21,456 nt of DNA from a virus: the IMG/VR virus record IMGVR_UViG_3300010430_000514, positions 1 to 21,456 of that record; one strand, written 5' to 3'. The translations under genes were made by a program, and so were the position numbers. Shown here one piece after another: positions 4,391-17,623 of this stretch (the stretch's first letter is position 1; every line of letters starts with the position of its first letter). A model generated the notes under the pieces. The model was given only the letters and a program-made list of their open reading frames with translations. It was not told where the DNA came from and did not search any database.

Positions 4391-4419
4391 CGCCTGCCCA
4401 TCTTCACTAATTGGTTAGA

Positions 4420-4764: not shown

Positions 4765-4871
4765 ATTTGAATCCTTGGCGATTTTTTTGCATATTAGCTA
4801 TTTAATCTTCGCTTATTTCTATGAATTTTTCAACGTGTTCAAATTATCAACTAGTTACACAGTGCAATAGT

Positions 4872-4901: not shown

Positions 4902-4907
4902 CCCATC

Positions 4908-5285: not shown

Positions 5286-5303
5286 CATTCCAAGGGAGGA
5301 ATT

Positions 5304-5591: not shown

Positions 5592-5594
5592 GCC

Positions 5595-6124: not shown

Positions 6125-6141
6125 CCCCTCTTTCGAGGGGT
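6124..6141. terminator. Hairpin terminator between convergent units
   Basis: ACCCCTC (6124-6130), loop TTTC, GAGGGGT (6135-6141): a perfect 7-bp stem just after the lipoprotein stop and just after the stop of the facing minus-strand gene at 6148. The T-tracts on both sides are short (ATTATT on each strand), so it probably acts in both directions but less strongly than the terminators at 17111 and 17216. Confidence 0.7.
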
Positions 6142-6147
6142 ATTATT

Positions 6148-6761: not shown

Positions 6762-6826
6762 TCAACCGACTTTTTTAGTTTAACTGCATTATTTTGAGAT
6801 TCTAGATATTTGTGAGACGATTAGGC

Positions 6827-7663
6827 ATGGCAAAAATTTATGACCTACCCACGCCGGGAAAAAACGAGAAGATCACCTATTTAACTATATCTGATTTACA
6901 TAGCTTGAAATGCGACCCTGTTGCGATGGAAAAAATTTTCCAGGCGTTCCAGTTTGTGCCAATTCGAGAGCGCAGAATCATTTTACTGGGAGATATATTA
7001 GACATTAGCTTTCTTTATTCCAAAGATCCTATTTTCCAAAAGGCGATGAAATCTAAAGATTGGGATTATTTTATTGAGGAAGCGACTAAGGAAAAAATCT
7101 GGTTCGATGAATTTTACCAGCGTATTAGAAAGTTGGTTATAAATGACGAATATATCGTTTTTGCGCTAGGGAATCACGAGGAAAGGCTGACTAGAAGTTA
7201 TTTTCTTCCGCATATCCCGCATTCACTCCTTCATAATTTCGCCATGCCTGACATAGCGGAAGCTGAAAAACGTAAGATTAAAATAATAGATTACAATGAC
7301 TGGTTTAGAATAACGACTCATAAAAGCCCTAAGCTATACTGGACCCACGGGCAATATTGTGGACAAAATCCAATAAAGAAACATTACCTGGATTCTGTTG
7401 GTGGCGGTGGCGCTGTCATCTTTGGACATACTCACGAAGCTGGTATGAAATCGTTTAAAAATCTTGAACATACGATAATTTGCTACAATAACCCGTGCCT
7501 ATGTGGGATTGACCCAGAAACTCAGCCGAGTTACTTAGAAGGTAAAAGCCACAATTGGAGCCAAGGAGCTACATTTGCGACAATTACCTGGGATCACCAT
7601 TTTATTAATTTGTTATTAGTTAAGGATGGCGAGTTGGCTTTGCCGACTGGGGAAATCTTTTAA
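6827..7663 (+). CDS. Calcineurin-like metallophosphoesterase
   Basis: A binuclear metal phosphoesterase that would hydrolyse a phosphomono- or diester; the substrate is unknown. The full motif set is present in the 278-residue form: D23 and H25 (SDLH), D56 (LLGDILD), N116-H117 (LGNHEE), H174 (YWTHGQ) and H201/H203 (FGHTH). It should therefore be active. The frame is open from a GTG at 6812, but the ATG at 6827 gives the better start (AKIYDL) with a nearby AGG. It is alone on the plus strand between two leftward operons and its 3' end overlaps the facing gene by 44 nt. Phage enzymes of this family have been linked to nucleic-acid or nucleotide processing, so a DNA-metabolism role is plausible but unproven. 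Confidence 0.9.
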   Translation: MAKIYDLPTPGKNEKITYLTISDLHSLKCDPVAMEKIFQAFQFVPIRERRIILLGDILDISFLYSKDPIFQKAMKSKDWDYFIEEATKEKIWFDEFYQRIRKLVINDEYIVFALGNHEERLTRSYFLPHIPHSLLHNFAMPDIAEAEKRKIKIIDYNDWFRITTHKSPKLYWTHGQYCGQNPIKKHYLDSVGGGGAVIFGHTHEAGMKSFKNLEHTIICYNNPCLCGIDPETQPSYLEGKSHNWSQGATFATITWDHHFINLLLVKDGELALPTGEIF

Positions 7664-7805
7664 ACAATTTCTTTTCGGCCTGATATCGAATCCTTCCTGG
7701 GGAAGAACAAACAATCACACCATTACTATAAACATTGTACTGGCGTTTTTTTAGTTTTTCGGGACATGTAAACCGTCTAATTCTCTTTGCTTGTCTTGCG
7801 TTCAT
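7620..7805 (-). CDS. Small basic phage protein, 61 aa
   Basis: Starts MNARQAKRIRR, an opening I know from many small uncharacterised phage proteins ('MNAKQAKRLR'), and continues with a basic region ending in RIRYQAEKKLFKRFP. A strong GGGGGAGA ribosome-binding site lies just before the ATG. The start overlaps the stop of the upstream membrane protein by 4 nt. The 3' end runs 44 nt into the metallophosphoesterase on the other strand. Function unknown. Confidence 0.7.
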   Translation of the reverse strand: MNARQAKRIRRFTCPEKLKKRQYNVYSNGVIVCSSPGRIRYQAEKKLFKRFPQSAKPTRHP

Positions 7806-7984
7806 TTCTCCCCCAGTAAACTGTTAACCATTTTACATTGAAAGCTTTCGTTATCAAAAATCAACACGTTTCCACCTTTGATTCTGGCTTGTGGTTCAAA
7901 ATGTGTGGCCGTAAATAAAATCATTAATACAGCTCCCACAACCACACCACTAAGCAATAAACCTATTGGTTCATAATTATCCAT
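7802..7984 (-). CDS. Single-pass membrane protein, 60 aa
   Basis: A short polar N-terminus (MDNYEP) is followed by one clear transmembrane helix (IGLLLSGVVVGAVLMILFTA, residues 7-26) and a 34-residue soluble tail with one cysteine. It starts 10 nt after the 22-aa hydrophobic microprotein, with AAGG upstream, and overlaps the next gene by 4 nt. Function unknown. A second small membrane gene in a row suggests a membrane-directed task, such as superinfection exclusion or a lysis helper, but this is inference. Confidence 0.7.
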   Translation of the reverse strand: MDNYEPIGLLLSGVVVGAVLMILFTATHFEPQARIKGGNVLIFDNESFQCKMVNSLLGEK

Positions 7985-7994
7985 AAATCCGCCC

Positions 7995-8063
7995 TTACCT
8001 AAAAACTAGGTTCATAAAAATAATAAATAATAAAATCAAAAAAATACCGATTACAATATTCAT
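7995..8063 (-). CDS. Hydrophobic 22-aa microprotein ORF
   Basis: The ORF reads MNIVIGIFLILLFIIFMNLV plus FR, a single transmembrane helix and nothing else. Its ATG (8061-8063) overlaps the TGA of the CsrA-like gene (8060-8062) as ATGA, the coupling pattern used throughout this operon. Without it the gap between the CsrA-like gene and the next gene would be 75 nt, unusually long for this operon. The bases are AT-rich, and AT-rich sequence can encode hydrophobic runs by chance, so confidence is moderate. Confidence 0.5.
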   Translation of the reverse strand: MNIVIGIFLILLFIIFMNLVFR

Positions 8064-8266
8064 TTCGCCTTATTCCCATGCAGTCCGGCCACAAGGCTAG
8101 ATAACCTTTTCGACGTTCGTCTGACTGCGCTTTTAACTGTTTTAATTTCTACGGCCTTAGGGGCATCAATTGCTAGTTTAACAAATCCTCCCCCCATTTT
8201 CTTAACCGTGATAATCGCGCCACCGATTTTTAGGTGCTCGCCTTTTTTAATGGTCTTTACAAGCAT
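8060..8266 (-). CDS. csrA: CsrA-family RNA-binding regulator
   Basis: CsrA is a small dimeric protein that binds GGA motifs in mRNA leaders and usually blocks ribosome access. This 68-residue protein follows the CsrA pattern: ML at the start, GEHLKIG (9-15, against GETLMIG in E. coli CsrA), strands with Val/Ile and Gly, VKLAIDAPKAV (29-39, against VRIGVNAPKEV) and a C-terminal helix with basic residues (KSAVRRTSKRLSSLVAG). Two RNA-contact positions of E. coli CsrA differ: L4 is Lys, and the residue aligned with R44 is Thr. It is coupled to bet by a TAATG overlap, with GGGGGG as ribosome-binding site. Family assignment is from sequence pattern; whether it regulates phage or host RNA is unknown. 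Confidence 0.82.
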   Translation of the reverse strand: MLVKTIKKGEHLKIGGAIITVKKMGGGFVKLAIDAPKAVEIKTVKSAVRRTSKRLSSLVAGLHGNKAK

Positions 8267-9297
8267 TATTTCCCCCCAAGCTTAAAGGAAACATCACCGG
8301 CCCCTTTATGTTGCTGCTTTGGTTCTGGTGCTGGTTTTGCTGGCTCTTCCTTTTTGGGTTCTGGTTTCGGAGTCGGCTTTGGCTGTGGATGGACGTGTTT
8401 TTTTACTGCCTCAATTTCCTTTGCCGTTTCCTTGCCAATGAAATCCTCTAGATTATCTATATAACTATCAATTTGAGACACGGAAGACCCCCTTAGTTTG
8501 CTTGTGTCGTCTAATGCGGTAATTTGGTGAAACATGCTGACTTTCTGATCGATTGGTTTTCCTGAGAAGTAGCTGTCAAATTTATTCATAAATATATTAA
8601 TCTTCTCAGTTTTTTCCTTGGAGCATTCCAAAGCTTTTTGATTAATTTTCGTATTGGTTTCAATGTCAGAATCGAATTGTTCAAGTTGTATTTCTTTGTC
8701 CATGTTCTCATTAAATTCTTCCTCTATGTACATTCCAGTTAAAGCGTTTGGAAATGCCACTCTCAAGCAGTTTGCTAGGGCGCATTTCCTAATCATTGTA
8801 TACGGCTTTCCTTTCCAGATTGGGCTTTTATGGTCAACGAATTCCTTAAACCACGCCTCAAAAACAAAGGGGGTCGCACGGTCTGTTCGCTCTACGAAGG
8901 CAGTAGCGCACAATTCTTTTCTCTCTTCGCCTGTAAATGGATCAAAACAGTCCTTCGGTCCAACCTCCACCCTTACACTCTTCAGTTTTCCACTTTGTTC
9001 GGCTCGGCTTAAAAAGAAATGATACGAAAAAACCGTACAACCCACTTTTACCCACTTGTCGCGCCCGCCTTCATTTACTTTTTTATTCCTAGTAATTAAA
9101 AAGGCTTGCCCAAGTCGTGGGTCAGCACCAGTTAATTGAACTTTTTGAACGTAATCAATTATGTGGCGCAATCCTAAATCTGGGTTTTGTTGTACTACTA
9201 ATTGCAGGAAATTATCGTCAAGCGTTCGCTTAACATCATCTCCGGTACTTAAAAATGATTTAATTTTTTCTACATTTGGTGAAATTAATGCTGTCAT
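8266..9297 (-). CDS. bet: Bet/RecT-superfamily single-strand annealing protein
   Basis: A recombinase that binds single-stranded DNA and anneals complementary strands, used in phage replication and recombination. The core matches the Bet pattern: IIDYVQKVQLTGADPRLGQA (about 46-65), VFSYHFFLSRAEQSGKL, the W-x-x-E-F-V-like FEAWFKEFVDHKSPIWKGKP, then YTMIRKCALANCLRVAFPNA and GMYIEEE. The last 50 residues are Pro/Lys-rich, probably a flexible tail, ending in SFKLGGK. Length 343 is long for Bet because of this tail. It has its own promoter candidate and carries the 17-nt leader motif over its ribosome-binding site. A partner exonuclease is not seen in the window. Confidence 0.87.
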   Translation of the reverse strand: MTALISPNVEKIKSFLSTGDDVKRTLDDNFLQLVVQQNPDLGLRHIIDYVQKVQLTGADPRLGQAFLITRNKKVNEGGRDKWVKVGCTVFSYHFFLSRAEQSGKLKSVRVEVGPKDCFDPFTGEERKELCATAFVERTDRATPFVFEAWFKEFVDHKSPIWKGKPYTMIRKCALANCLRVAFPNALTGMYIEEEFNENMDKEIQLEQFDSDIETNTKINQKALECSKEKTEKINIFMNKFDSYFSGKPIDQKVSMFHQITALDDTSKLRGSSVSQIDSYIDNLEDFIGKETAKEIEAVKKHVHPQPKPTPKPEPKKEEPAKPAPEPKQQHKGAGDVSFKLGGK

Positions 9298-9299
9298 GT

Positions 9300-9358
9300 C
9301 CGTCTTCCTGTTTCGGGTTTATGTTTAGTTACTCTACCTCTTTTGATTTATCTGTCAA
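9300..9358 (-). promoter_or_regulatory. Promoter plus 17-nt leader motif upstream of bet
   Basis: On the minus strand, TTGACA (9358-9353), 16-nt spacer, TAGAGT (9336-9331), then 14 nt later the 17-mer CCGAAACAGGAAGACGG (9316-9300), 2 nt before the bet ATG. The -35 and -10 lie in the 3' end of the Gp157 gene, allowing separate transcription of bet and the CsrA-like gene. The AGGA in the motif is the ribosome-binding site, and CCG/CGG at the ends could form a short stem with AGGA in the loop. Confidence 0.6.
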
Positions 9359-9877
9359 TTTCTTAGATTGTCCGGCTTTAATGGGTTTAAATTGCGCGCC
9401 TCTTTTTCCGTCTACCAGGCAGGCTCCCTTTACTAAATAGCCCATGGACAGATGCTTTTTAAGCTCGGCTTTATTGACTTTAATATTTCGCTCCACGGTT
9501 ACAAACTGCATGGGTATTTTATCGGGATTTGTAACCTCTACAACTTTTTTAGCTTTGGGGATTACGATCCTTTCAAGATCTCCCACCGCCTCATCTATAC
9601 CTACTTTGTCTAGACAATAGGTTATGTATTCCGCGAAATTTTGCTGCTTGTTATTGATTGATTTTTTTAAGTTATTTAATTCATCCACTCGTTTAGTAAT
9701 GGATTCCATGGTGTCGTTTAAATATCTATTATAGCCGACTATACCGTCAATCTTGTCCTCTAGTAGCTTGGTGATGTATACAACGGCTTCCTCTTTTTCT
9801 TCACCGTCCAAGCAGCCATCAAGCGCCTGGATGTCATCGGTTATTTTGTACAGCGTGGTTTTTACTTGTCCTTTCAT
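9329..9877 (-). CDS. Siphovirus Gp157-family protein
   Basis: Matches the layout of the Gp157 family: N-terminal LYKITDDIQALDGCLDGEEK, two long helices with GIVGYNRYLNDTMESITKRV and LNNLKKSINNKQQNFAEYIT (coiled coil, about 50-95), then a beta part with RIVIPKAKKVVEVTNPDKIP, PMQFVTVERNIKVNKAELKK and a final VKGACLV. The spacing of DKIP-x-x-F-V and the K-A-x-L-K-K segment is typical. The family is usually next to recombination genes, as here with bet, and has been proposed to act in phage resistance or recombination, but its mechanism is not settled. The start overlaps the upstream stop as ATGA, with GAGGTG upstream. Confidence 0.78.
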   Translation of the reverse strand: MKGQVKTTLYKITDDIQALDGCLDGEEKEEAVVYITKLLEDKIDGIVGYNRYLNDTMESITKRVDELNNLKKSINNKQQNFAEYITYCLDKVGIDEAVGDLERIVIPKAKKVVEVTNPDKIPMQFVTVERNIKVNKAELKKHLSMGYLVKGACLVDGKRGAQFKPIKAGQSKKLTDKSKEVE

Positions 9878-10074
9878 TCACACCTCACGTCCAGGCAATC
9901 CCGGCAAAATCTAGTTATTACTTTTTGTCCCCTTTGCATTTTATAATGGGGGATTCCATGCAATTGCGTTTCACACAAGAAACACTTTTTAATTTTAAAT
10001 TTAGGATTATTTCTAGGGTGGCAAAAGACTAGCTTTGTCTTGCCTGATCTAGTTACCACCCAACCATTATTCAT
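9874..10074 (-). CDS. Small zinc-binding protein, 66 aa
   Basis: The best start is the ATG at 10074, which overlaps the upstream stop as TAATG; a longer frame from 10104 is open but has no such signal. The 66-residue protein has CFLCETQLHGIPHYKMQRG in the middle and RFCRDCLDVRCE at the end, two C-x-x-C pairs that could bind one zinc ion. The N-terminal half is basic. Zinc-ribbon proteins of this kind are common in phage early operons, with largely unknown roles, often DNA or RNA binding. Confidence 0.7.
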   Translation of the reverse strand: MNNGWVVTRSGKTKLVFCHPRNNPKFKIKKCFLCETQLHGIPHYKMQRGQKVITRFCRDCLDVRCE

Positions 10075-10334
10075 TAGTAAAGTACCTGTTGAATCTGCTC
10101 CCACATGAAATTGTGATCGTCGCTTAGATCTTCAAGTTCTTTTTCAGTTAGCATTATTTCTTTGCCGCAATTGGGACATGTCCAGCTTGCTGATTGAACG
10201 TAGGCATCACAAAAATCTGGGTAATCTTTAGTGTTAATGCCTTCAATTTCAATGTTATCAAGCTCTTTCATAACATCAGGATTTAATACGTTTAAATTGT
10301 GGTAGCTTTTGAATTCTTTGCAATCGTGGATCAT
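10074..10334 (-). CDS. Hypothetical 86-aa zinc-knuckle protein
   Basis: Not recognised as a family. SWTCPNCGKEIMLTEKELED (about 50-69) contains one C-x-x-C knuckle; C5 and C42 are two further cysteines. The rest is acidic and helical. The ATG follows directly after the second copy of the leader motif CCGAAACAGGAAGACGG, which supplies AGGAAG as ribosome-binding site, so the gene likely heads its own transcript. Confidence 0.68.
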   Translation of the reverse strand: MIHDCKEFKSYHNLNVLNPDVMKELDNIEIEGINTKDYPDFCDAYVQSASWTCPNCGKEIMLTEKELEDLSDDHNFMWEQIQQVLY

Positions 10335-10336
10335 TT

Positions 10337-10395
10337 CCGTCTTCCTGTTTCGGTTTTTGATAACTAAATTTAGCTCCTTTTATTTGTCGTGACAA
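10337..10395 (-). promoter_or_regulatory. Promoter plus 17-nt leader motif upstream of the 10334 gene
   Basis: On the minus strand, TTGTCA (10395-10390), 17-nt spacer, TAAATT (10372-10367), then 13 nt later the 17-mer CCGAAACAGGAAGACGG (10353-10337), 2 nt before the ATG. The element is built like those at 9300-9358 and 15355-15414. The -10 region also contains the perfect palindrome CTAAATTTAG, which could be an operator. Confidence 0.58.
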
Positions 10396-10577
10396 GTATT
10401 ATTTTTAATTTTATCCATCCTTTTTAAACCACCCTGATTACAGTAGTTTATAAGAAGATCTAAGCCGTGCTGCGGCTTTAAATCTCCCATATATTCCAGG
10501 ATTTCAACTTGCCAATCGTATAAACGATAAGTTCGCCGCTTTTTTGTCTCTGTTTTTTTTAGCTTATTTCTACCCAT
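10380..10577 (-). CDS. Hypothetical 65-aa basic protein
   Basis: The first 16 residues are Lys/Arg-rich (GRNKLKKTETKKRR). TYRLYDWQVEILEYMGDL followed by LDLLINYCNQGG has a strand-helix-helix rhythm that faintly recalls ribbon-helix-helix DNA-binding proteins. I would not assign that family without a search. The start overlaps the upstream stop as TAATG at 10577. Confidence 0.6.
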   Translation of the reverse strand: MGRNKLKKTETKKRRTYRLYDWQVEILEYMGDLKPQHGLDLLINYCNQGGLKRMDKIKNNTCHDK

Positions 10578-10816
10578 TAAACGTTCCGCTTTCTTAATAC
10601 TCTCAACGCCTCCCTGGCGCTTCCATTAAATCCTGAAATCTGCTTCGTGGTCGCTAATCCTACGTTCCTAGGAATGCCTAAAATCTTACCGGCCTTCATA
10701 AATGAAATTTCCCGACTCTTTTTAGGGCGCAATCTATTAAGCTCATCCGCGCACAATAGCACTGTATGATTAAGTATTGCGACAAGATCCATTTTTCTGC
10801 TTCTTGATTTATTCAT
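10577..10816 (-). CDS. Hypothetical 79-aa basic protein
   Basis: Not recognised. A basic N-terminus (NKSRSRKM), a helical middle (LVAILNHTVLLCADELNRLR) and a C-terminal part that could be a small helical DNA-binding unit (FMKAGKILGIPRNVGLATTK, then NGSAREALRVLRKRN). It overlaps the upstream gene by 8 nt and the downstream gene by one base of a TAATG junction. Confidence 0.62.
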   Translation of the reverse strand: MNKSRSRKMDLVAILNHTVLLCADELNRLRPKKSREISFMKAGKILGIPRNVGLATTKQISGFNGSAREALRVLRKRNV

Positions 10817-11180
10817 TTGGCACCCCCGCCTCTATATAAATTTCGTTAGTCTCTGGGTCGCACTTAATTTGCCTGCACTCACCCTGGGCTATAGCAGACG
10901 CTGCCGTACGCATACTGCAATCCAGTCTCCAGTCTCCCTTTGCGGAATAATCAAAATGTTTATACGCCCACAAATAAAGTCGCTCTGGCTTAGATTGCTT
11001 GATAGTCCAGTTTCTTATGCCATCTTCCCTGTAGTTATAGACGTTTCCAATTTCATCTAGAAATATAACCAGTTCTGGTGTTAATGAGTTGAAACCAAAA
11101 AACAAAAATTTATATTTTCCTTTACCGTGTAGCCAGGTTTCCCCCGCCACGCCATTCTCTCTTAACTCTTCAAATGTCAT
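10809..11180 (-). CDS. Hypothetical 123-aa protein
   Basis: Not recognised. It contains a beta-rich part (YKFLFFGFNSLTPELVIFLD, GNVYNYREDGIRNWTI) and an aromatic-rich centre (RLYLWAYKHFDYSAKGDWRL). The start overlaps the DUF5662-like gene stop as ATGA, with AAAGGA upstream. No membrane segment or metal motif is seen. Confidence 0.65.
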   Translation of the reverse strand: MTFEELRENGVAGETWLHGKGKYKFLFFGFNSLTPELVIFLDEIGNVYNYREDGIRNWTIKQSKPERLYLWAYKHFDYSAKGDWRLDCSMRTAASAIAQGECRQIKCDPETNEIYIEAGVPNE

Positions 11181-11740
11181 TGATTGTCCTTTGCTTGTCT
11201 CTCAAAGCACTCGATAGCTTTTTCCATTAATGGTAAACTTGACCAATACCAAGCATCGTCTGGTTGGAAATATTTACCATGCTTGGGCTTCCATTTCTCC
11301 ATAAAGAATTCCCTACAACTTCCCTCATTGAATTCCTGGGCCATTGCCTGTAGATCGCAAATAATCTCTAGGCACTCTATGTGAGTGAAACAACAAAATA
11401 AACCCTTATATTTTTCAGGGTGATGATTCTCTTGCATATAGTGATCTTGTACGGCCTCATCTACTTGCTTTTCAATTTCTTCCGATGGATATTTGTGAGC
11501 TTTATTATATCGTTTAACATCATAATAAGCTGTAAGCTCAATATAGGGTTCAAATTGTTTTTCTGAGAACTTGGACCTATCGTGATTCATTACGTTCCAC
11601 ATGGCCCCTCGGCACTGTTCCCTTGTTAATTTTAATTCTTCCGCGCATTCAGAAATCAAGTACAGCATATTTTTTTGAACTCGGTGAATATGCTCAACGG
11701 TTCTATTTAAATATCTGTGTAGTTTTTGATCGTAAGGCAT
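11177..11740 (-). CDS. DUF5662-like protein, possible metal-dependent hydrolase
   Basis: The 187 residues contain conserved His/Asp/Glu clusters known to me from DUF5662-type phage proteins: NVMNHDRSKFSEKQFEPYI (about 46-64), DHYMQENHHPEKYKG (about 98-112) and a later helix with LEIICDLQAMAQEF (about 123-136). The H-D-x-S-K-F, H-x-x-x-N-H-H and C-D-x-x-A-M signatures could form a metal site resembling that of HD-domain enzymes. The activity is unknown. The ribosome-binding site AAAGGGGTGAG is strong, and a 30-nt gap separates it from the upstream gene. Confidence 0.65.
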   Translation of the reverse strand: MPYDQKLHRYLNRTVEHIHRVQKNMLYLISECAEELKLTREQCRGAMWNVMNHDRSKFSEKQFEPYIELTAYYDVKRYNKAHKYPSEEIEKQVDEAVQDHYMQENHHPEKYKGLFCCFTHIECLEIICDLQAMAQEFNEGSCREFFMEKWKPKHGKYFQPDDAWYWSSLPLMEKAIECFERQAKDNQ

Positions 11741-11770
11741 ATTCTCACCCCTTTATTATTTACCCTGGAT

Positions 11771-12058
11771 TTAATCCAACCTAATGTTGTACTCCCTACA
11801 GTAAGACCTGGCGCGTTTACCACCGATAGCATTTATCGGACCGCTACTTCGCCAGTCGCTATTATGAATAGTCGTCCTATAATAATCATTGTCCTGCCAA
11901 TTATTTTTCTTGCCATAAAAAACCGCGACCTTATTCGCCTCGTTTAGTTGAGATTTAATTAATAAATAATCATCCAACTCAACAAACCTATCGCCATGAT
12001 TAAAGTCTTGACTGTCACAAAGCTCCTCCCATTCGTATCCCATATCTTTATCGCTCAC
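11771..12058 (-). CDS. Paralogue-family protein with EANKV-FYG domain (95 aa)
   Basis: Not a named family. Its C-terminal half (QLNEANKVAVFYGKKNNW, then GGKRARSYCREYNI) matches that of the gene at 12225-12587 (QLGEANKVISFYGEINNW, then GGFVAREYCTKYNI), so the two are paralogues. The N-terminal half differs, lacking the coiled coil. The start is GTG, overlapping the stop of the gene at 12055-12228 as GTGA, so translation is probably coupled. Function unknown. Confidence 0.65.
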   Translation of the reverse strand: MSDKDMGYEWEELCDSQDFNHGDRFVELDDYLLIKSQLNEANKVAVFYGKKNNWQDNDYYRTTIHNSDWRSSGPINAIGGKRARSYCREYNIRLD

Positions 12059-12228
12059 TCATCCCCCTCGGTTAAATCTTTTTCTATTTCATTCATTGTG
12101 CGAGCGAGCATTATCCCAGCACGAAAATTATCCATATACGAAATCTCGTTATCATAAGGGAGTTCAATGAATTCGTTACCATAAAACAAATTAATCCCGT
12201 CCATGTCTACAACGAACCACTTGCTCAC
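12055..12228 (-). CDS. Hypothetical 57-aa acidic protein (GTG start)
   Basis: Found by hand in a gap of about 170 nt. It begins GTG AGC AAG (MSKWFVVDMDGINLFYGNEF) and ends in RTMNEIEKDLTEGDE, an acidic amphipathic helix. It overlaps both neighbours by 4-nt GTGA junctions (12225-12228 and 12055-12058), the same coupling used by its neighbours, which is good evidence that it is translated. No family recognised. Confidence 0.62.
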   Translation of the reverse strand: MSKWFVVDMDGINLFYGNEFIELPYDNEISYMDNFRAGIMLARTMNEIEKDLTEGDE

Positions 12229-12587
12229 TCTTCACTCTCCGTTATATTGTATTTAGTGCAGTACTCTCGAGCAACGAAACCACCACAATTAAACCCGCTT
12301 GATATCGAGATGTCTGATTTATCAATCTGATTAAAAAATGCGGGTATTTGATTTTGAGTCATCCACCAATTATTTATTTCTCCATAAAAACTTATAACCT
12401 TATTCGCCTCGCCTAGTTGTTGTTTAACTGACTGTAGCTTTTTAAATAAGTCATCTGCATAGGAGGCTTCCGCATCGGCAGCAGATCTATAATCTCTCAG
12501 GTCGCTTTCAACCTGCGCTAATTCAGCTTCTCGCTTCTTCAGTCGCCTAATTAAAAACTCTTCATTTGACTCTACTATATCGGTCAC
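12225..12587 (-). CDS. Coiled-coil plus EANKV-FYG paralogue (120 aa)
   Basis: A mosaic of two modules found separately nearby. Residues of about 15-57 form a coiled coil (KKREAELAQVESDLRDYRSA then DAEASYADDLFKKLQSVKQQ), shared almost word for word with the gene at 13695. The second half (GEANKVISFYGEINNW to REYCTKYNI) is shared with the gene at 11771. The start is GTG in a GTGA overlap with the upstream stop. Small phage proteins with such coiled coils are common and mostly uncharacterised. Confidence 0.68.
   Translation of the reverse strand: MTDIVESNEEFLIRRLKKREAELAQVESDLRDYRSAADAEASYADDLFKKLQSVKQQLGEANKVISFYGEINNWWMTQNQIPAFFNQIDKSDISISSGFNCGGFVAREYCTKYNITESEE
12413..12482. repeat. Dispersed repeat, copy 1 (partner at 13823-13892)
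   Basis: The 70 nt from CTAGTTGTTGTTTAACTG to GCATCGGCAGC match 13823-13892 closely at DNA level, with mostly scattered single-base differences. The stretch encodes the shared coiled-coil segment of two paralogous proteins. It reflects gene duplication or exchange rather than a regulatory element. Confidence 0.7.
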
Positions 12588-13087
12588 TCTTCCCCCTCTA
12601 CCCGCTCGGGGTACTTATCGAAGTATTCGTCTGCCACTTCAGATTGGGCTGCAAAACCTTTGTTTGCGCCAATTTCGTGGATGTGCTCAATGGTTATCCA
12701 ATCATCAATTTCGGATGGCCCAAGAATTGTACTTGAAGCATTTTTCTTGATCTCAGATAGCCTGCTTTCAGCAAAGATAAGCTTCTCTTTAAGCTCCGCT
12801 ATCTCTGCGTTGGCTTGGTCTAGTTGGGATTGGAGGGATTTATTTGTATTAACCCAGTGCTTGTCTGATAACTGAATATCGTCTTGTCTTGGGTGGTTCA
12901 GCTCAAAAACATTCTTTAATATCGCCTTCTTGTATTCACCCCTTGTGTATAAGACCATGGCTCCGCTTTCATTTTCTGACCACTTCACAGCGCCGCGATT
13001 ACCGCAGGCATTTAAAATCTTCCAGTGCTCATAGCATGTTTCAAAAACTCTAGTTGTTATGTCTTTTATTTTTTCTATATCACTCAT
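12584..13087 (-). CDS. Hypothetical coiled-coil protein, 167 aa
   Basis: The best start is the ATG at 13087 (MSDIEKIKDITTRVFETCYE), which follows GAGGCGGGTAGAG; the frame is open five codons further, to 13102, without a signal. An N-terminal helical domain is followed by a coiled coil (LQSQLDQANAEIAELKEKLI, about 86-105) and a C-terminal region with WITIEHIHEIGANKGFAAQS. It resembles the neighbouring paralogues in layout (coiled coil, then a small domain ending near the C-terminus) but not closely in sequence. It overlaps the upstream gene by 8 nt. Confidence 0.65.
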   Translation of the reverse strand: MSDIEKIKDITTRVFETCYEHWKILNACGNRGAVKWSENESGAMVLYTRGEYKKAILKNVFELNHPRQDDIQLSDKHWVNTNKSLQSQLDQANAEIAELKEKLIFAESRLSEIKKNASSTILGPSEIDDWITIEHIHEIGANKGFAAQSEVADEYFDKYPERVEGEE

Positions 13088-13352
13088 CTCTACCCGCCTC
13101 AAATTGCTTTATTATTTTTTGAAATTCATTGTATTCGTGAATAGCTTCGTTTTCAGTATATGGCGTGAAACTATCGCACAAAACCTGATCTCGACTTAAT
13201 CCAGTAGTTACACAAGGTAGCTTTCTTAAATACCCGCGCCTTTCTCCGCCTGTAATGTTTAAATAGTTAATACCTTTTGCGCATTCCGACTGGTGAATTG
13301 GCGACAGGTAGTGTTTGCACGTTTTCATTTTTTGTTTTATATAGTCTTTCAT
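13080..13352 (-). CDS. Hypothetical Cys-containing 90-aa protein
   Basis: Not recognised. It contains cysteines at about 12, 24, 47 and 59 (TCKHYLSPIHQSECAKG, LPCVTTGLSRDQVLCDSF), which with H14 and H20 could bind a metal. The C-terminus is an acidic helix (NEAIHEYNEFQKIIKQF). A TTTTAGG sequence upstream could serve as ribosome-binding site. It starts 9 nt after the 43-aa membrane ORF. Confidence 0.64.
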   Translation of the reverse strand: MKDYIKQKMKTCKHYLSPIHQSECAKGINYLNITGGERRGYLRKLPCVTTGLSRDQVLCDSFTPYTENEAIHEYNEFQKIIKQFEAGRDE

Positions 13353-13361
13353 TCGTTAAAC

Positions 13362-13493
13362 CTAAAAGTTAATTCTAAAGTCAGTGCAAAACTTCCACCC
13401 GATATAAGCAAAAAATATAATCACTACAAAAAGTGGTATTCCTAACCCTAGTCCGATAATCCATAAAACCCACTCTGGAATATTAAGTATCAT
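13362..13493 (-). CDS. Single-pass membrane microprotein, 43 aa
   Basis: Found by hand in a 158-nt gap. It reads MILNIPEWVLWIIGLGLGIP, then LFVVIIFFAYIGWK, and ends FCTDFRINF. One long transmembrane helix (about 8-31) is followed by a short tail. The ATG follows the operon's repeated GAGGCGGGTAGAG segment at the usual distance, and the stop is 9 nt before the next gene, so it fills its gap exactly. Function unknown. Confidence 0.6.
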   Translation of the reverse strand: MILNIPEWVLWIIGLGLGIPLFVVIIFFAYIGWKFCTDFRINF

Positions 13494-13510
13494 CTCTACC
13501 CGCCTCTGGT

Positions 13511-13705
13511 TTATTTCTTTTTAAACGCTTGGATAACTTTCTTATTTTTTTCATATAAAAGCTCATTTTCTTCCAGTATTTTCTCAACGCTCATTTTTGA
13601 GTTTTTTGCATGGATGGATTCACATTGTGTAACTACAAGTTTATTAACGCTTTTTCTACCGCATATTCGGCACTCAAATTTCACCATGTTGTAATCAACT
13701 TCCAT
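13511..13705 (-). CDS. Small zinc-finger-like protein, 64 aa
   Basis: FECRICGRKSVNKLVVTQCESIH (split as FECRICGRKS and TQCESIH) gives C-x2-C-x12-C-x3-H, a plausible single zinc site (residues 12, 15, 28 and 32). The second half is a charged coiled coil (SVEKILEENELLYEKNKKVI). The start at 13705 follows GAGGCGGGTA; an alternative ATG lies six codons later. It overlaps the upstream gene by 11 nt. Confidence 0.65.
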   Translation of the reverse strand: MEVDYNMVKFECRICGRKSVNKLVVTQCESIHAKNSKMSVEKILEENELLYEKNKKVIQAFKKK

Positions 13706-13952
13706 TATTACCCGCCTCTGGTTTGTGTTTAGCTAGGACTTCATTGGCCACAAGTCTGGCCTCCTGGCATTGTTCGCAACAAGTGTTTTTACTTATCGAT
13801 TCAAGCGCCTGCTCATACTCGGCTAGTTGTTGTTTAACTGTCTGTAGTTTTTTAAACAGATCATCGGCGTACCCCGCCTCTGCATCAGCAGCGCTTTTGT
13901 AATTCCTTAACTCAACTTGCAGCGGTTCCACATGTTTCCTCCAACATGCCAT
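13695..13952 (-). CDS. Coiled-coil paralogue with C-terminal Cys pair (85 aa)
   Basis: Residues of about 10-43 (LQVELRNYKSAADAEAGYAD, DLFKKLQTVKQQL) are nearly identical to those in the gene at 12225. The C-terminal half differs: TCCEQCQEARLVANEVLAKH, which recalls the C-x-x-C...A-R-x-x-A-x-E-x-L motif of small phage coiled-coil proteins. Its start lies inside the 43-aa ORF at 13907-14038 in another frame, so this protein could be the continuation of that ORF after a frameshift. The ribosome-binding site GAGGGGCG is acceptable. Confidence 0.65.
   Translation of the reverse strand: MACWRKHVEPLQVELRNYKSAADAEAGYADDLFKKLQTVKQQLAEYEQALESISKNTCCEQCQEARLVANEVLAKHKPEAGNNGS
13823..13892. repeat. Dispersed repeat, copy 2 (partner at 12413-12482)
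   Basis: Direct repeat of about 70 nt with 12413-12482, encoding the shared coiled coil. See the other copy for detail. Confidence 0.7.
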
Positions 13953-14038
13953 CCACGCCCCTCAAGGCTGTAATCCATACCGGGACTCGGGGAATGTGTC
14001 GCCCACTTCTCAAATTCCTTTACCGCTTCATCATCCAT
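13907..14038 (-). CDS. Small ORF of 43 aa upstream of and overlapping a coiled-coil gene
   Basis: Found by hand. GGAGATTTGA lies directly before the ATG, a good ribosome-binding site. It reads MDDEAVKEFEKWATHSPSPG, MDYSLEGRGWHVGG and NMWNRCKLS. The opening 'EFEKW' and the later W residues resemble the N-terminus of a widespread class of phage proteins in which this part is fused to a coiled coil. It overlaps the start of the gene at 13952 by 46 nt in a different frame. Either these are two genes or one gene split by a frameshift. Confidence 0.5.
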   Translation of the reverse strand: MDDEAVKEFEKWATHSPSPGMDYSLEGRGWHVGGNMWNRCKLS

Positions 14039-14112
14039 TCAAATCTCCGTAGGTATATAGTAGACTGGTTACTGTGTACTGTTTCCATATCAATACTCCA
14101 AATACCACTTAT

Positions 14113-14436
14113 TCATTCATACTCCCCGGGAAAAAGCTCTCTAAGTGTCGATTGGGCACGCTCTGCAAATTTATCGCTATCAAACGATCTGACACTACTA
14201 TTTTCAACTTTAAATAGATCAAAAATATCCAAATAAATATCGTTAGTATTAAACGGCTCCCCGGCGTAGTGTTCAACGACAGATTTGAGCTTGGCGATTA
14301 TCTCGTCTTTATTAGGGCCAACACTGTCCCAATCAATGGAACTGGTTTTGAAATCACAATTTAAGCACTTCGTATCACCAGTTGGCCCCTGCTCTCGAAG
14401 CACCACGTTTGAGCCGCATTTTTTACATGGTTTCAT
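14113..14436 (-). CDS. Zinc-ribbon protein, 107 aa
   Basis: Starts MKPCKKCGSN and continues to DTKCLNCDFKTSS, a C-x2-C (4, 7) and C-x2-C (24, 27) pair forming an N-terminal zinc ribbon, like the 'Lar' or restriction-alleviation type opening of many phage proteins. The C-terminal 70 residues are helical (IIAKLKSVVEHYAGEPFNTN, SDKFAERAQSTLRELF). A GAGGAAAA ribosome-binding site is present. I do not assign the Lar function because the rest does not clearly match. Confidence 0.66.
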   Translation of the reverse strand: MKPCKKCGSNVVLREQGPTGDTKCLNCDFKTSSIDWDSVGPNKDEIIAKLKSVVEHYAGEPFNTNDIYLDIFDLFKVENSSVRSFDSDKFAERAQSTLRELFPGEYE

Positions 14437-14671
14437 TTTTCCTCGCCTTGGACTTCCAGTAACATAGTCCCCGAAATATATTTTCGTACCGCTTTTTATA
14501 TTCTTCCACTTCTCGCCGGGCTTTACGGACTTCTAACTCCAGCCATGTCACATCAAGATCCTTACTATACGTTGAGTAAATCTTGTCGTTTGGACAATAA
14601 ATAGAAACTTCCTCAACTACTTTAATTTTCCCGACACTACAGGGGGCCATTATTAATGTTAGGGTTTTCAT
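14423..14671 (-). CDS. Hypothetical 82-aa coiled-coil protein
   Basis: The N-terminal half is beta-like (MKTLTLIMAPCSVGKIKVVE). The C-terminal half is a charged helix (LELEVRKARREVEEYKKRYE) ending in LCYWKSKARKNETM. It overlaps the zinc-ribbon gene by 14 nt, and its start overlaps the upstream stop as ATGA. An AAGGAAA sequence is a possible ribosome-binding site. No family recognised. Confidence 0.63.
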   Translation of the reverse strand: MKTLTLIMAPCSVGKIKVVEEVSIYCPNDKIYSTYSKDLDVTWLELEVRKARREVEEYKKRYENIFRGLCYWKSKARKNETM

Positions 14672-14919
14672 TTCTGAAATTTCCTTGGATCTCTTTTTGT
14701 AATTTCTAAATAAATCAATCCAACAACTAGCGCTAGGGTTAATAATGCCCCTGTAATTAAGATCCCAGCAGATTCAATTTTTATTGGAATTTTCTCGCAT
14801 GGGTTAATTGACTCTATGGTGCCGAAATCTTCAGTCATTATTAACTCTACTGGCTCGCCTGGTTTGGAATTTATGTGCCTTTCCAGGTTTACTAAATGAG
14901 GGGATTTTAAGTGCTTCAC
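14668..14919 (-). CDS. Membrane-anchored 83-aa protein
   Basis: A soluble N-terminal part of about 47 residues is followed by one transmembrane helix (ESAGILITGALLTLALVVGL, about 49-68) and a short basic tail (TKRDPRKFQK). This arrangement suggests a protein anchored near its C-terminus. The start is GTG, overlapping the upstream TGA as GTGA, with AAGGTAAGGG as ribosome-binding site. Function unknown. Confidence 0.66.
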   Translation of the reverse strand: MKHLKSPHLVNLERHINSKPGEPVELIMTEDFGTIESINPCEKIPIKIESAGILITGALLTLALVVGLIYLEITKRDPRKFQK

Positions 14920-15353
14920 GCCCTTACCTTCATATTTTTATAACTCTGTGTCATGGTCACCGCTGCAAGTTTCCAAGCCAGCTCCTTTGGGACTTGATCG
15001 GCTTTAAATTTCTCGCCAACTTCCGTTTCCCATCTCGCTACATTTGCCCCGGCCAGTTCGTAATTATTAACTTTCAAATATGACTCGACTCGTTGTCTAA
15101 ATATTTCTTGTTTTGATACTTCCACTTCATTTTTCTCATCTTGGAGCAGGCTACTTAGTAATCCTTCTTTTACCGGCTTATTTGCCCAGCTGTAGAGCCC
15201 GTAGCTGCGACTTCTGATATAAAGCCTATATCTTCCGCCTCGTGGTCCTGTGAGCGAATAAACTTCGCAAACCTTTGACTCGCTAACTAGACCTTTAACG
15301 CTGTAGGTTGTTGATCCAATTGTAATTTCTTTGTGATTTTTTAAATAATTCAT
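14916..15353 (-). CDS. Hypothetical 145-aa protein under the leader motif
   Basis: Not recognised. A beta-rich N-terminal half (EITIGSTTYSVKGLVSESKV, GRYRLYIRSRSYGLYSW) is followed by a helical C-terminal half (KQEIFRQRVESYLKVNNYEL, PKELAWKLAAVTMTQSY). It is directly downstream of the best promoter in the operon and the third copy of the leader motif, which gives its ribosome-binding site. It therefore heads a transcript that may include the genes to its left. Confidence 0.68.
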   Translation of the reverse strand: MNYLKNHKEITIGSTTYSVKGLVSESKVCEVYSLTGPRGGRYRLYIRSRSYGLYSWANKPVKEGLLSSLLQDEKNEVEVSKQEIFRQRVESYLKVNNYELAGANVARWETEVGEKFKADQVPKELAWKLAAVTMTQSYKNMKVRA

Positions 15354-15354
15354 A

Positions 15355-15414
15355 CCGTCTTCCTGTTTCGGTTAGTGTTTAATGAAATCTAGCCTTGGCT
15401 GTTTTTTATGTCAA
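15355..15414 (-). promoter_or_regulatory. Promoter plus 17-nt leader motif upstream of the 15353 gene
   Basis: On the minus strand, TTGACA (15414-15409), 17-nt spacer, TAGATT (15391-15386), then 14 nt later CCGAAACAGGAAGACGG (15371-15355), 1 nt before the ATG. It lies in a true intergenic gap, unlike the other two copies. Transcription would start near 15379, so the motif would lie close to the 5' end of the mRNA. Confidence 0.68.
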
Positions 15415-15419
15415 GACAA

Positions 15420-15731
15420 TTATAAAATATATGCATCCGAAGCTCCTGATACATAATTAGATACCTGTTGAAGCCTTTGGCGCAGATTAGCATTTTCCTG
15501 CCTTAGCTTCTCCATTTCTGGCTCAGCATCAAAAGTTAACTCAATTGGGCAGTGAATTTTAACCTTTCCATCAATTTCCAATAATTGAGGCTCGTCGCAC
15601 TCTTCAAACTTGATAACTCCTTGAGAAATCATCCTATTTAAAAATATCTCGATTTCCGTAGTTCTTTCTCGCCTAAATTCCTTGAAAAGATCCTCTGCAA
15701 AATCTCTCTGGTTCTTATAATTACTTAACAT
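15420..15731 (-). CDS. Hypothetical 103-aa coiled-coil protein
   Basis: Starts MLSNYKNQRDFAEDLFKEFR, similar in rhythm to the 'DYRSAADAEASYADDLFKKL' of the paralogue family at 12225 and 13695, so a distant relative is likely. A beta part in the middle (LLEIDGKVKIHCPIELTFDA) is followed by a C-terminal coiled coil (EMEKLRQENANLRQRLQQVS). A strong AAGGAGGA ribosome-binding site is present. Function unknown. Confidence 0.68.
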   Translation of the reverse strand: MLSNYKNQRDFAEDLFKEFRRERTTEIEIFLNRMISQGVIKFEECDEPQLLEIDGKVKIHCPIELTFDAEPEMEKLRQENANLRQRLQQVSNYVSGASDAYIL

Positions 15732-15742
15732 TTATGTCCTCC

Positions 15743-15928
15743 TTAAAAATCTATCGGGTCTTTTTCAGCCTTAGTTTTACAGTTAAAACACAATCGATTT
15801 TGTATGCCAAAGCTCTCAAATTTTTTATTGCAACATAAACAAACTCTTTGCGCTCTGTCTTTTTTGGATAGTGCTCTAGTATTTCGTTTGAAATTTACTT
15901 CCTTTCTGTTTTCTTCACCTTCTTTCAA
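15743..15928 (-). CDS. Small zinc-ribbon protein, 61 aa (TTG start)
   Basis: A basic N-terminal part is followed by RVCLCCNKKFESFGIQNRLC and FNCKTK: C-x-x-C and C-x-x-C about 15 apart, a treble-clef or zinc-ribbon pattern familiar from small phage proteins ('C-x-x-C-x-x-x-F-x-S-x-G-x-x-N-R-x-C-x-x-C'). The start is TTG, overlapping the upstream stop as TTGA, with GGGGGAA as ribosome-binding site. Function is probably DNA- or RNA-related but unproven. Confidence 0.7.
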   Translation of the reverse strand: MKEGEENRKEVNFKRNTRALSKKDRAQRVCLCCNKKFESFGIQNRLCFNCKTKAEKDPIDF

Positions 15929-16158
15929 TGTAATTCCCCCAGATCTTCTTTTTTAGTTTTAATAATCGGTGAGACTTTTCCCATGGCCAGATCTTTTAAT
16001 TTCTCTAATAGAAAAAGAACTTCACCAGATGTAATTCCCGCAAAGCAAACTCTATTTTGTGTGCCTGAAATCAATCCAATGCATACCTTGTATCCAGCTT
16101 CATTTGCGTCGGTTGCTAGTTTAGTAATGTATTCTAGCATTTCATTTTCCTTACTCAC
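15925..16158 (-). CDS. Hypothetical 77-aa protein, first gene of the early operon
   Basis: Not recognised. Helix, strand, helix: ENEMLEYITKLATDANEAGY, KVCIGLISGTQNRVCFAGIT, SGEVLFLLEKLKDLAM. It starts with GTG, preceded by AAGGAG at good distance. It is the first gene to the left of the 1.1-kb gene-free control region and would head the early operon. Confidence 0.65.
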   Translation of the reverse strand: MSKENEMLEYITKLATDANEAGYKVCIGLISGTQNRVCFAGITSGEVLFLLEKLKDLAMGKVSPIIKTKKEDLGELH

Positions 16159-16500
16159 TTTGAAACTCCTTATTTTATTTTCAATACCTTGAATTTTGAG
16201 TATGCGAAGCCAAAGATAATCTATGAAACTTTCTTAAAAAAATTCCAGGGATCACCTATTCCACGTTCATCTCGCCGGTGTATGCCGTCATTCCTTTTCG
16301 GAACTTTGGATGAGGTTGTCGGTAAGCTTCTCGGACTATGTAAGGGCGAAACCTACCCGCTAACACATTCTAGTAAGGACACTTAGCTATGCCCAGTCTA
16401 ATACCCGTCATTCATCGCAGGTCAGCCAGCCGGTCTTTAAACGTACAGCATGCGCCAGTTTTGGCCATACGCTTGGGCATCGGTTTCCCCTCTCTGGTAC
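16159..16500. other. Gene-free block, possible long structured leader
   Basis: About 340 nt without a convincing gene. From about 16240 it is visibly richer in G and C than the T-rich flank at 16500-16800. Both strands show open stretches with few stops: plus 16189-16386 (a TTG-start frame with no ribosome-binding site) continues past two stops at 16384 and 16396, and minus frames show a 22-codon ORF starting at 16480 with GAGAGGGG in front. Open reading on both strands with internal stops fits a structured RNA or a decayed gene better than an active protein. It would lie in the 5' leader of the early operon if the promoter at 16643-16670 is right. Confidence 0.35.
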
Positions 16501-16515
16501 TGTTTGAATTTATTT

Positions 16516-16560
16516 TTGATAGTTGTTGAGTGTATTCTGTGATAAACCTAAAACTATCAA
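16516..16560. repeat. 9-bp inverted repeat
   Basis: TTGATAGTT (16516-16524) and AACTATCAA (16552-16560) are perfect reverse complements 27 nt apart. The position, between the early operon and its probable promoter, fits a repressor operator pair or an RNA hairpin in the leader. Confidence 0.6.
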
Positions 16561-16642
16561 CGCACTATTAGGTTGGTTTAGGTCTAGACTTTTGTCAAAA
16601 CTTAAATCAGCCTAATTTCTAAATCCTCAATCAAATTTATTT

Positions 16643-16670
16643 ACTTTATATTCGCGTTAAAAGTTGTCAC
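16643..16670 (-). promoter_or_regulatory. Candidate leftward early promoter
   Basis: On the minus strand, GTGACA (16670-16665), 16-nt spacer and TAAAGT (16648-16643). Transcription would start near 16636 and leave a leader of about 480 nt before the first gene at 16158. The fit is fair (5 of 6 and 4 of 6 consensus bases), and the surrounding sequence is AT-rich, so other start sites are possible. Confidence 0.35.
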
Positions 16671-16818
16671 GATTCTTTTGTTCATAGGGGATTTCGTAAT
16701 TGTTGTTTAGAATAACGCTATGTTCTTATCTAGGTTTTTGCGCTTTTTCCTCTATTTTTGCCTTTTTTTCGCGTTTTTCGTGGTGTTTGTGCACTGTTCT
16801 TGATGTTTGGAAATAATG

Positions 16819-16831
16819 TACGACCTACGAC
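16819..16831. repeat. 13-nt direct repeat, left copy
   Basis: TACGACCTACGAC, identical to 17147-17159. Each copy is made of heptamer-like CTACGAC/TACGACC units. The two copies bracket the palindrome-rich patch and the short plus-strand transcription unit. Confidence 0.75.
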
Positions 16832-16847
16832 CCCGAGGCGCATTATC

Positions 16848-16913
16848 TCGAGAGCTCATTATTTCTACTTATGACAGGATCCGGTACCTCATTAGTAATT
16901 TTAATGACCCTGC
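16848..16913. other. Patch rich in 6-bp palindromes
   Basis: Within about 65 nt there are CTCGAG (within the 8-mer TCTCGAGA), GAGCTC, GGATCC directly followed by GGTACC, and CTGCAG. Two short inverted repeats with CATTA/TAATG and TCAT/ATGA arms lie between them. It carries no gene. Confidence 0.6.
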
Positions 16914-16925
16914 AGTAGATCACGA

Positions 16926-16954
16926 TTCCTATATTAAATTCGTTTAGTTATAAT
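16926..16954 (+). promoter_or_regulatory. Promoter of the short plus-strand unit
   Basis: TTCCTA (16926-16931), 17-nt spacer and perfect TATAAT (16949-16954). The -35 is weak. Transcription would start near 16961. Confidence 0.5.
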
Positions 16955-16990
16955 GGTTTCATCATGAGTAAGCGTAACGAAAGTAAGCTC

Positions 16991-17020
16991 GGGACTACAG
17001 GAATAGTCCCTCCTTTTTTT
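16991..17020 (+). terminator. Rho-independent terminator or attenuator 1
   Basis: Perfect 7-bp stem GGGACTA/TAGTCCC, loop CAGGAA, then TCCTTTTTTT. Confidence 0.7.
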
Positions 17021-17110
17021 GAAAAATCCCGAAATTATGATATAAATATTTTGTGTCTGTCTCCAAGCATACACAGGTCATCATCCGTGACCATCCTTGA
17101 ATAGTGTCTG

Positions 17111-17136
17111 GCCCCATAGGAATGGGGCTTTTTTTT
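17111..17136 (+). terminator. Rho-independent terminator 2
   Basis: Perfect 7-bp stem GCCCCAT/ATGGGGC, tetraloop AGGA, then eight T. Confidence 0.85.
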
Positions 17137-17146
17137 GTAAATGACC

Positions 17147-17159
17147 TACGACCTACGAC
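17147..17159. repeat. 13-nt direct repeat, right copy
   Basis: TACGACCTACGAC, identical to 16819-16831, 328 nt away. The extended copy from 17143 holds two tandem CTACGAC units. Confidence 0.75.
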
Positions 17160-17209
17160 ATCATGGACCGCAATAGACAACGGCCATCAATAATCAAATA
17201 TTAAGGGAT

Positions 17210-17233
17210 AAAAAAGCCCCTCCGAAGAGGGGC
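17210..17233 (-). terminator. Rho-independent terminator of the tail operon
   Basis: On the minus strand GCCCCTC, loop TTCG, GAGGGGC, then TTTTTT: a 7-bp stem with a stable UUCG tetraloop. It lies 64 nt after the stop of the last tail gene (17297) and would stop leftward transcripts before the control region. Confidence 0.88.
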
Positions 17234-17296
17234 GACCCGAGAGAACAAGAGAGAACAGAAAACAAGAAAAGCCTCGCCTCTAGTGTATCACGATTT

Positions 17297-17623
17297 TTAC
17301 ATTCCCTTAGCGTAGAAATGAGTATTTAATGTGCCATTGCCGCCCGTCGCCACCCATCTGTGTCGAAAATAGCGATATTCATGGTCAACTTTTTCATAAC
17401 TGAATGTCCCATTGGCAGCGACCGCCTGAGTATCCCTCTGGACCCATGTAACGCCATCATTTGAGCTTTCCGATATTAGATTGCCTGTTAGTGCAGCCGC
17501 CGCCGTAACCACGCTAACAACGCTTAAATGAAGGTATTGATCTAGGTCTAGGCTTGCACCGACAATGCTAACATTCATCGCTTCATCGTCAATATAATCT
17601 GATTTATCTGCTTTAGTGAACAT
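17297..17623 (-). CDS. Putative virion-associated beta protein, 108 aa
   Basis: After a short charged N-terminus it is a beta-sandwich-like pattern: MNVSIVGASLDLDQYLHLSV, LTGNLISESSNDGVTWVQRD, ANGTFSYEKVDHEYRYFRHR, GGNGTLNTHFYAKGM. The 'G-x-L-x-x-E-S-S-x-D-G-x-x-W' and 'Y-R-Y-x-R-x-R' segments are familiar from small phage structural proteins near tail fibre genes. A TAGGAG ribosome-binding site is present. It is the last gene of the tail operon. The role in the virion is inferred from pattern and place. Confidence 0.65.
   Translation of the reverse strand: MFTKADKSDYIDDEAMNVSIVGASLDLDQYLHLSVVSVVTAAAALTGNLISESSNDGVTWVQRDTQAVAANGTFSYEKVDHEYRYFRHRWVATGGNGTLNTHFYAKGM

Follow-up and report, generated by a model that had tools for sequence, protein, structure and literature searches.

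The start-associated sequence (SAS) of cluster K mycobacteriophages, GGGATAGGAGCCC, has the form GGG...AGGAG...CCC, with the Shine-Dalgarno sequence located between complementary GC triplets (PMC3203893). The ESAS, a promoter with a 17-bp imperfect inverted repeat, lies upstream of the SAS, and ESASs contain SigA-like promoters (PMC11373665). A SAS-like motif, GGGAAAGGACCCC, has been described in Microbacterium cluster EF phages (PMC7302621). The SAS has no known reader (PMC3203893, PMC11373665), and DUF3310 has been speculated to act on SASs in Adephagia (PMC11373665). The window analysed here, a whole stretch of 21,456 nt of viral DNA, contains an element for which these cluster K and cluster EF systems appear to be the closest match. 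It reads as a SAS-type element, already known and functionally unexplained; the new part would be a SAS-like sequence variant outside clusters K and EF. The element is the 17-mer CCGAAACAGGAAGACGG, which occurs in three exact copies (a count from a genome fragment), on the minus strand only. The features of the three cassettes are as follows.

8060–8266, minus strand: CsrA-family protein (PF02599); the start overlaps the recT stop (TAATG)
8266–9297, minus strand: RecT/Bet-type single-strand annealing protein, first gene of cassette 1 (PF03837, 66.6 bits; phrog_10056)
9300–9316, minus strand: start-associated sequence copy 1, 2 nt 5' of the recT/bet ATG
9331–9358, minus strand: sigma70-like promoter 1, TTGACA-16-TAGAGT, inside the 3' end of a gp157-like gene
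10074–10334, minus strand: 86-aa protein with CxxC, first gene of cassette 2; no convincing family match
10337–10353, minus strand: start-associated sequence copy 2, 2 nt 5' of the ATG of the 86-aa gene
10367–10395, minus strand: sigma70-like promoter 2, TTGTCA-17-TAAATT
14916–15353, minus strand: 145-aa protein, first gene of cassette 3; no convincing family match
15355–15371, minus strand: start-associated sequence copy 3, 1 nt 5' of the ATG of the 145-aa gene
15386–15414, minus strand: sigma70-like promoter 3, TTGACA-17-TAGATT, wholly intergenic

The repetition of the 17-mer is not explicable by chance: 0.03 matches are expected, and none of 100 shuffles reached three. A fourth copy with up to three mismatches was not found in the whole window, antisense included. 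Every copy adjoins a start codon, and none occurs without one. The copies are identical at 17 of 17 positions. Over the adjoining 20 nt, the matches number 4–6 downstream (background 5.4) and 4–11 upstream; conservation has sharp limits, at the edges of the 17-mer. A recent duplication of genes as the origin of the repeat was rejected, since the flanks are near background and the proteins encoded by the three first genes are mutually unrelated. Within the 17-mer, which can be written CCG-AAACAGGAAGA-CGG, the Shine-Dalgarno AGGA sits 7–8 nt from the ATG and inside the complementary CCG...CGG triplets. Pairing with 16S rRNA does not account for the conservation of these outer triplets. A search of Rfam gave no match.

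The −10 box is separated from the 17-mer by 14, 13 and 14 nt in copies 1, 2 and 3, and the promoters score 10, 9 and 10 of 12. Promoter-like sites are not enriched across the region (22 seen, 24.6 expected). A site scoring at least 9/12 at this exact distance is found at 0.35% of minus-strand positions, and one scoring at least 10/12 at 0.06%; the coupling of promoter and 17-mer is not explicable by chance. Two of the three −35 boxes lie within the 3' end of the preceding gene. The initial annotation had placed the 17-mer at three minus-strand sites 1–2 nt before an ATG, behind promoters at a nearly constant distance, and our analysis re-found the positions and start-codon distances (2, 2 and 1 nt) and all promoter sequences, spacers and the 13–14 nt gap. 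Also supported are its three transcription units with a common promoter-leader module, the position of the CsrA-family gene next after recT, and the Shine-Dalgarno sequence in the motif. We infer promoter and leader activity of the cassettes from their sequence.

The likeness to the cluster K SAS/ESAS covers several features. In both, a repeated element occupies the ribosome-binding site of non-structural genes, a Shine-Dalgarno core is flanked by complementary GC triplets (here CCG...AGGA...CGG), starts are mostly ATG, conservation extends beyond 16S pairing and no reader is known; a SigA-type promoter lies upstream for a subset. The gaps ahead of the genes are unusually large, here 31, 45 and 66 nt; most gene junctions of the block overlap. 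The 17-mer is confined to the early region, and no copy occurs in L070, a 99.6%-identical contig that continues for about 5.3 kb on the structural side. The differences are the sequence itself, CCGAAACAGGAAGACGG being outside two mismatches of GGGATAGGAGCCC, the length (17 nt here, 13 in cluster K), the distance from the ATG (1–2 nt versus about 3–7), the copy number (three in a fragment versus 11–19) and the setting, an unrelated phage with a CsrA-like gene. As its sequence is unlike GGGATAGGAGCCC, the element would be classed as SAS-like and not as a cluster K SAS. The SAS was recovered in Anaya at 16 sites with at most two mismatches, and a CsrA match is absent from the Anaya genome. No local inverted repeat of at least 15 nt was found at the three sites (positions 7600–17300); the promoter is present. 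DUF3310 was not detected in the window in a search made without a positive control. The cluster EF motif (PMC7302621) is similarly positioned at the ribosome-binding site, flanked by GC triplets and tied to a conserved upstream sequence; it differs in sequence, copy number and host.

Searches with CsrA, RecT, Gp157 or DNA gave no close relative covering the early region. Exact matches to the 17-mer in viral contigs and genomes were isolated, in unrelated phages or bacteria and none with the promoter layout, and were taken as chance. A relaxed scan for CCGAAACAGGANNNCGG-ATG gave scattered, mostly GC-rich matches in which neither repeat nor promoter was seen. Comparable cassettes were observed in two unrelated IMG/VR phages. 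In L007, which lacks CsrA, there is a pair of the form promoter-CAACAAACAGGAAGAAC-ATG; L185 has many TATAATAgCCCCATCTTAAC..GGAGCAA-ATG cassettes and a canonical CsrA. Both (with CAACAAACAGGAAGAAC and CCCATCTTAACACGGAGC, respectively) share with our locus a consensus sigma70 promoter, a short constant leader with a Shine-Dalgarno sequence and an ATG, repeated within the genome, but complementary outer triplets were not noted in them.

CsrA/RsmA represses translation at the Shine-Dalgarno sequence, for example in glgC, and its target GGA is typically located in a six-nucleotide hairpin loop. The initial annotation proposed that the phage CsrA-like protein, by binding to CAGGAAG in each of the three leaders, would block ribosomes and so autoregulate recT-csrA together with two other transcripts. 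The locus resembles CsrA repression in having GGA at the Shine-Dalgarno sequence and a CsrA-family gene, directly behind recT. CAGGAAG does fit the CsrB repeat CAGGA(U/A/C)G (PMC7652899), as had been pointed out; AGGA is, however, also the plain Shine-Dalgarno core. The protein matches PF02599 with 35.5 bits (cut-off 27) over model positions 1–42 of 53, and L4, R6, R44, E46 and I47 of Escherichia coli CsrA are replaced by K, I, T, K and S. The R6-E46 pair is absent (I6, K46). Among the 80 phage CsrAs most similar to the E. coli protein, L4, R44 and E46 are present in 80/80, and with R6 included the conservation is 79–80 of 80. R44 is reported as essential for RNA binding by CsrA; with R44A or L4A, RNA binding or regulation is lost or reduced (PMC6692469; PMC7652899; PMC7366521). 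Control of the 17-mer by the phage protein is unlikely because the protein has lost these key RNA-binding residues of the family.

The CCG/CGG hairpin is marginal. It is predicted as a 3-bp stem with an 11-nt loop; folding of the short leaders gives −1.3 to −2.9 kcal/mol with z-scores of −0.3 to −1.5, no better than shuffles, and the stem-pair probability is about 0.4 at 9300, 0.2 at 10337 and 0.9 at 15355. The triplets could make the short stem proposed earlier, but the loop is 11 nt and not 6, and the low probabilities (0.2–0.4) concern two of the three copies. The co-occurrence of motif and CsrA-like gene anticipated for related phages did not appear: the 17-mer is in none of 21 terminase relatives, several of them fragments, and four of these records have CsrA-like genes. 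Start-associated repeats are not in excess at csrA-bearing phage loci (14/80, 1.20 Mb, versus 10/66, 0.57 Mb), and the promoter-AAACAGGAAG-ATG layout also occurs in phages without CsrA. With a single site in a short leader and no hairpin hexaloop, the locus departs further from known CsrA repression, and we regard a phage regulon of three transcripts repressed by its own CsrA-like protein as distinctly unlikely. Host CsrA could instead read the leaders while the divergent phage protein interferes, for instance as a putative binding-defective partner. The phage protein does retain N-terminal CsrA similarity with its RNA-contact residues lost, and the presence of phage CsrA correlates with that of host CsrA (PMC8450108), but GGA occurs just once in the copy 3 leader, and AlphaFold modelled the protein with low confidence (pLDDT 60.6), not well enough to search for similar folds. 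This possibility seems very unlikely.

The 17-mer could also be a DNA operator at about +7 to +24, where a phage repressor or activator would bind and control the three promoters, the overlap with the ribosome-binding site being incidental. The fixed 13–14 nt spacing to the promoter would agree with this, as would the repression by a transcriptional regulator suggested at ESAS sites in Adephagia (PMC11373665). We consider an operator unlikely: the 17-mer is not palindromic except for its 3-nt ends, the distance to the ATG is equally fixed, and each copy carries a correctly spaced Shine-Dalgarno sequence next to a start codon. A good Shine-Dalgarno sequence might be all that matters, the 17-mer having been spread by short gene-conversion events with functionless outer bases. 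Promoter plus AAACAGGAAG leaders in unrelated phages point this way, but three 17/17 matches with near-background flanks would need conversion tracts of about 17 bp or continuing selection, which makes the account very unlikely. We also find it improbable that cluster K, cluster EF and this phage independently reached one RNA device, a Shine-Dalgarno sequence between complementary GC triplets that is reused at multiple early promoters and read by a translation factor specific to the phage; here the reader would possibly be a CsrA derivative without the R44-type contact that recognises the 17-nt element.

Our preferred reading, to which we give a probability of about 0.6, is that each copy belongs to a SAS-like promoter-leader cassette in a densely packed early operon, outside the cluster K and EF groups. 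Host sigma70 RNA polymerase would start about 6–7 nt upstream of the 17-mer, giving a 5' untranslated region of roughly 25 nt of which the 17-mer makes up most. This leader would present the Shine-Dalgarno AGGA flanked by the complementary CCG and CGG. The cassette would restart transcription within the operon and may make translation initiation uniformly efficient for recT-csrA and two further early operon segments. Selection beyond the Shine-Dalgarno sequence may reflect the RNA form of the leader or a putative reader, as proposed for SASs; a dedicated regulator would not be required. The best fit is the simpler alternative in the initial annotation, an early promoter and ribosome-binding module in repeated copies, with the amendment that conservation exceeds the Shine-Dalgarno sequence, as in SASs.

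The residue analysis is a warning that a Pfam match and a GGA in the ribosome-binding site are insufficient to infer a CsrA regulon. With their fixed distances to promoter and start codon, the three cassettes are a compact system for testing what bases beyond the Shine-Dalgarno sequence do. SASs have been known since 2011 and their function is unexplained; a three-copy case in an unrelated phage suggests that the start-associated architecture recurs across phage groups.

The 17-mer CCGAAACAGGAAGACGG is present in three exact copies, all on the minus strand and each 1–2 nt before an ATG, as the initial annotation had proposed; the window has no other site at up to three mismatches. Dinucleotide shuffles of the window contained a mean of 0.03 copies and never reached three. 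The relevant features are as follows.

9300-9316, minus strand: copy 1, 2 nt from the ATG of recT/bet, promoter TTGACA-16-TAGAGT
10337-10353, minus strand: copy 2, 2 nt from the ATG of an 86-aa gene, promoter TTGTCA-17-TAAATT
15355-15371, minus strand: copy 3, 1 nt from the ATG of a 145-aa gene, promoter TTGACA-17-TAGATT
8266-9297, minus strand: recT/bet
8060-8266, minus strand: CsrA-like gene, directly behind recT/bet

The promoter-like hexamers described earlier at a near-constant distance are found upstream of each copy. Hexamer-pair sites are not enriched across the region overall. A promoter-like site (at least 9/12) is located 13–14 nt upstream of 0.35% of minus-strand positions as compared to 3/3 copies of the 17-mer (scores 10, 9 and 10 of 12), and the coupling is therefore beyond chance.

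Identity between the copies is 17/17 in the motif, 4–6/20 immediately downstream (background 5.4) and 4–11/20 upstream, where the promoter hexamers contribute. The proteins encoded downstream are mutually unrelated. The near-background downstream flank and the unrelated proteins rule out a duplicated gene cassette as the source of the repeat; the 17-mer itself is the unit kept or copied. Its AGGA is the Shine-Dalgarno, 7–8 nt from the ATG, and the other 13 bases would be unexplained by 16S rRNA pairing, judging from the standard anti-Shine-Dalgarno sequence; they may act through the form of the RNA itself, a phage factor or binding at the DNA level. None of the window's other ribosome-binding sites resembles the 17-mer.

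The copies are restricted to the early region, a long block of minus-strand genes (recT, gp157-like, DUF5662 and numerous small ones) that overlap at most junctions; the motif genes follow gaps of 31, 45 and 66 nt. The window is a 21.5-kb fragment of an incomplete phage genome, and further copies may lie beyond it. With the terminase large subunit as query, 21 IMG/VR contigs were identified as relatives. One is 99.6% identical and extends the structural side by about 5.3 kb; the 17-mer is absent (up to three mismatches) from this extension and from every other terminase relative. A search for a relative covering the early region at a useful distance found none. The window also holds a second start-associated repeat, AAACCAGAGGCGGGTA (13482-13512 and 13694-13724, minus strand), a few nucleotides upstream of two small genes, and a diverged internal duplication (12408-12493/13818-13903, 77% DNA identity over 86 nt; proteins 12225-12587 and 13695-13952, minus strand, 70% identity over 43 residues). 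In the gene-poor stretch adjoining the early block, ACGACCTACGAC is repeated at 16806-16831 and 17134-17159, close to terminator-like hairpins (16991-17010, 17110-17129).

Repression of all three transcripts by the phage CsrA-like protein had been proposed. Pfam does assign the product of the gene behind recT to the CsrA family (score 35.5 bits; cut-off 27), but its match stops at model position 42/53, short of the R44-bearing segment. Aligned to Escherichia coli CsrA, the RNA-contact residues L4, R6, R44, E46 and I47 are replaced by K, I, T, K and S; a MAFFT alignment moves the region by two residues, and position 44 lacks arginine in both versions. Loss of R44 or L4 abolishes or reduces CsrA RNA binding or regulation, and R6–E46 is a required salt bridge (PMC6692469; PMC7652899; PMC7366521). 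In the 80 phage CsrAs nearest the E. coli protein, a sample selected on similarity that gives the norm rather than the range, R44, L4 and E46 are conserved in 80/80 and R6 in 79/80. The window protein is possibly a protein–protein or altered-specificity derivative.

The leader hairpin is weak, and the expected co-occurrence failed to appear: four records among the terminase relatives (two apparently one phage) carry CsrA-like genes, none has the 17-mer, and one has a plain GGGGGAAAT as its recT leader. Start-associated 13-mer repeats show no excess in csrA-bearing loci (14/80, 1.20 Mb) versus controls (10/66, 0.57 Mb), which were fetched by leader patterns and may be enriched for such repeats. 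As a divergent CsrA-like protein could recognise a different RNA, we leave its control of the leaders a small probability, but no observation specifically favours it and we regard it as unlikely. That the 17-mer is a DNA operator is also unlikely.

A pattern scan for a promoter plus AAACAGGAAG met the same layout in unrelated phages, and the five such records checked (L007, L013, L016, L025 and L031) gave no CsrA match. L007, a 363-kb phage record, has two promoter plus CAACAAACAGGAAGAAC leader cassettes at 4841 and 5096, 255 nt apart. Another record, L185 (IMGVR_UViG_3300042383_000902; 2344-15824, 6170-6243), has many cassettes based on CCCATCTTAAC..GGAGCAA and a canonical CsrA (91.5 bits). 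Many of its early genes, including csrA, have a consensus sigma70 promoter and a short leader upstream; in several cases the leader carries ACACGGAG, which is close to the CsrA consensus (A/U)CANGGANG, at the Shine-Dalgarno. A CsrA regulon would be more plausible in L185 than in the present phage, although the bases preceding GGA differ among the L185 cassettes.

The closest described element to the 17-mer is the Start-Associated Sequence (SAS) of cluster K mycobacteriophages, GGGATAGGAGCCC, which lies at the ribosome-binding position in front of non-structural genes that follow large gaps, has symmetric outer bases and is conserved further than 16S pairing needs (PMC3203893). It is often downstream of an element (ESAS) holding a SigA-like promoter (PMC11373665); Microbacterium cluster EF phages provide a second instance, GGGAAAGGACCCC (PMC7302621). 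In phage Anaya, we recovered the SAS at 16 sites (up to two mismatches), and the genome gave no match to the CsrA family. As the anatomy is common to both but the sequence is different, the 17-mer looks SAS-like in kind and outside the cluster K family. We favour, with a probability of about 0.6, an SAS-like promoter-leader cassette for which CsrA would not be needed: transcription would start from the three promoters, giving a leader of about 25 nt with a predicted role in translation initiation.
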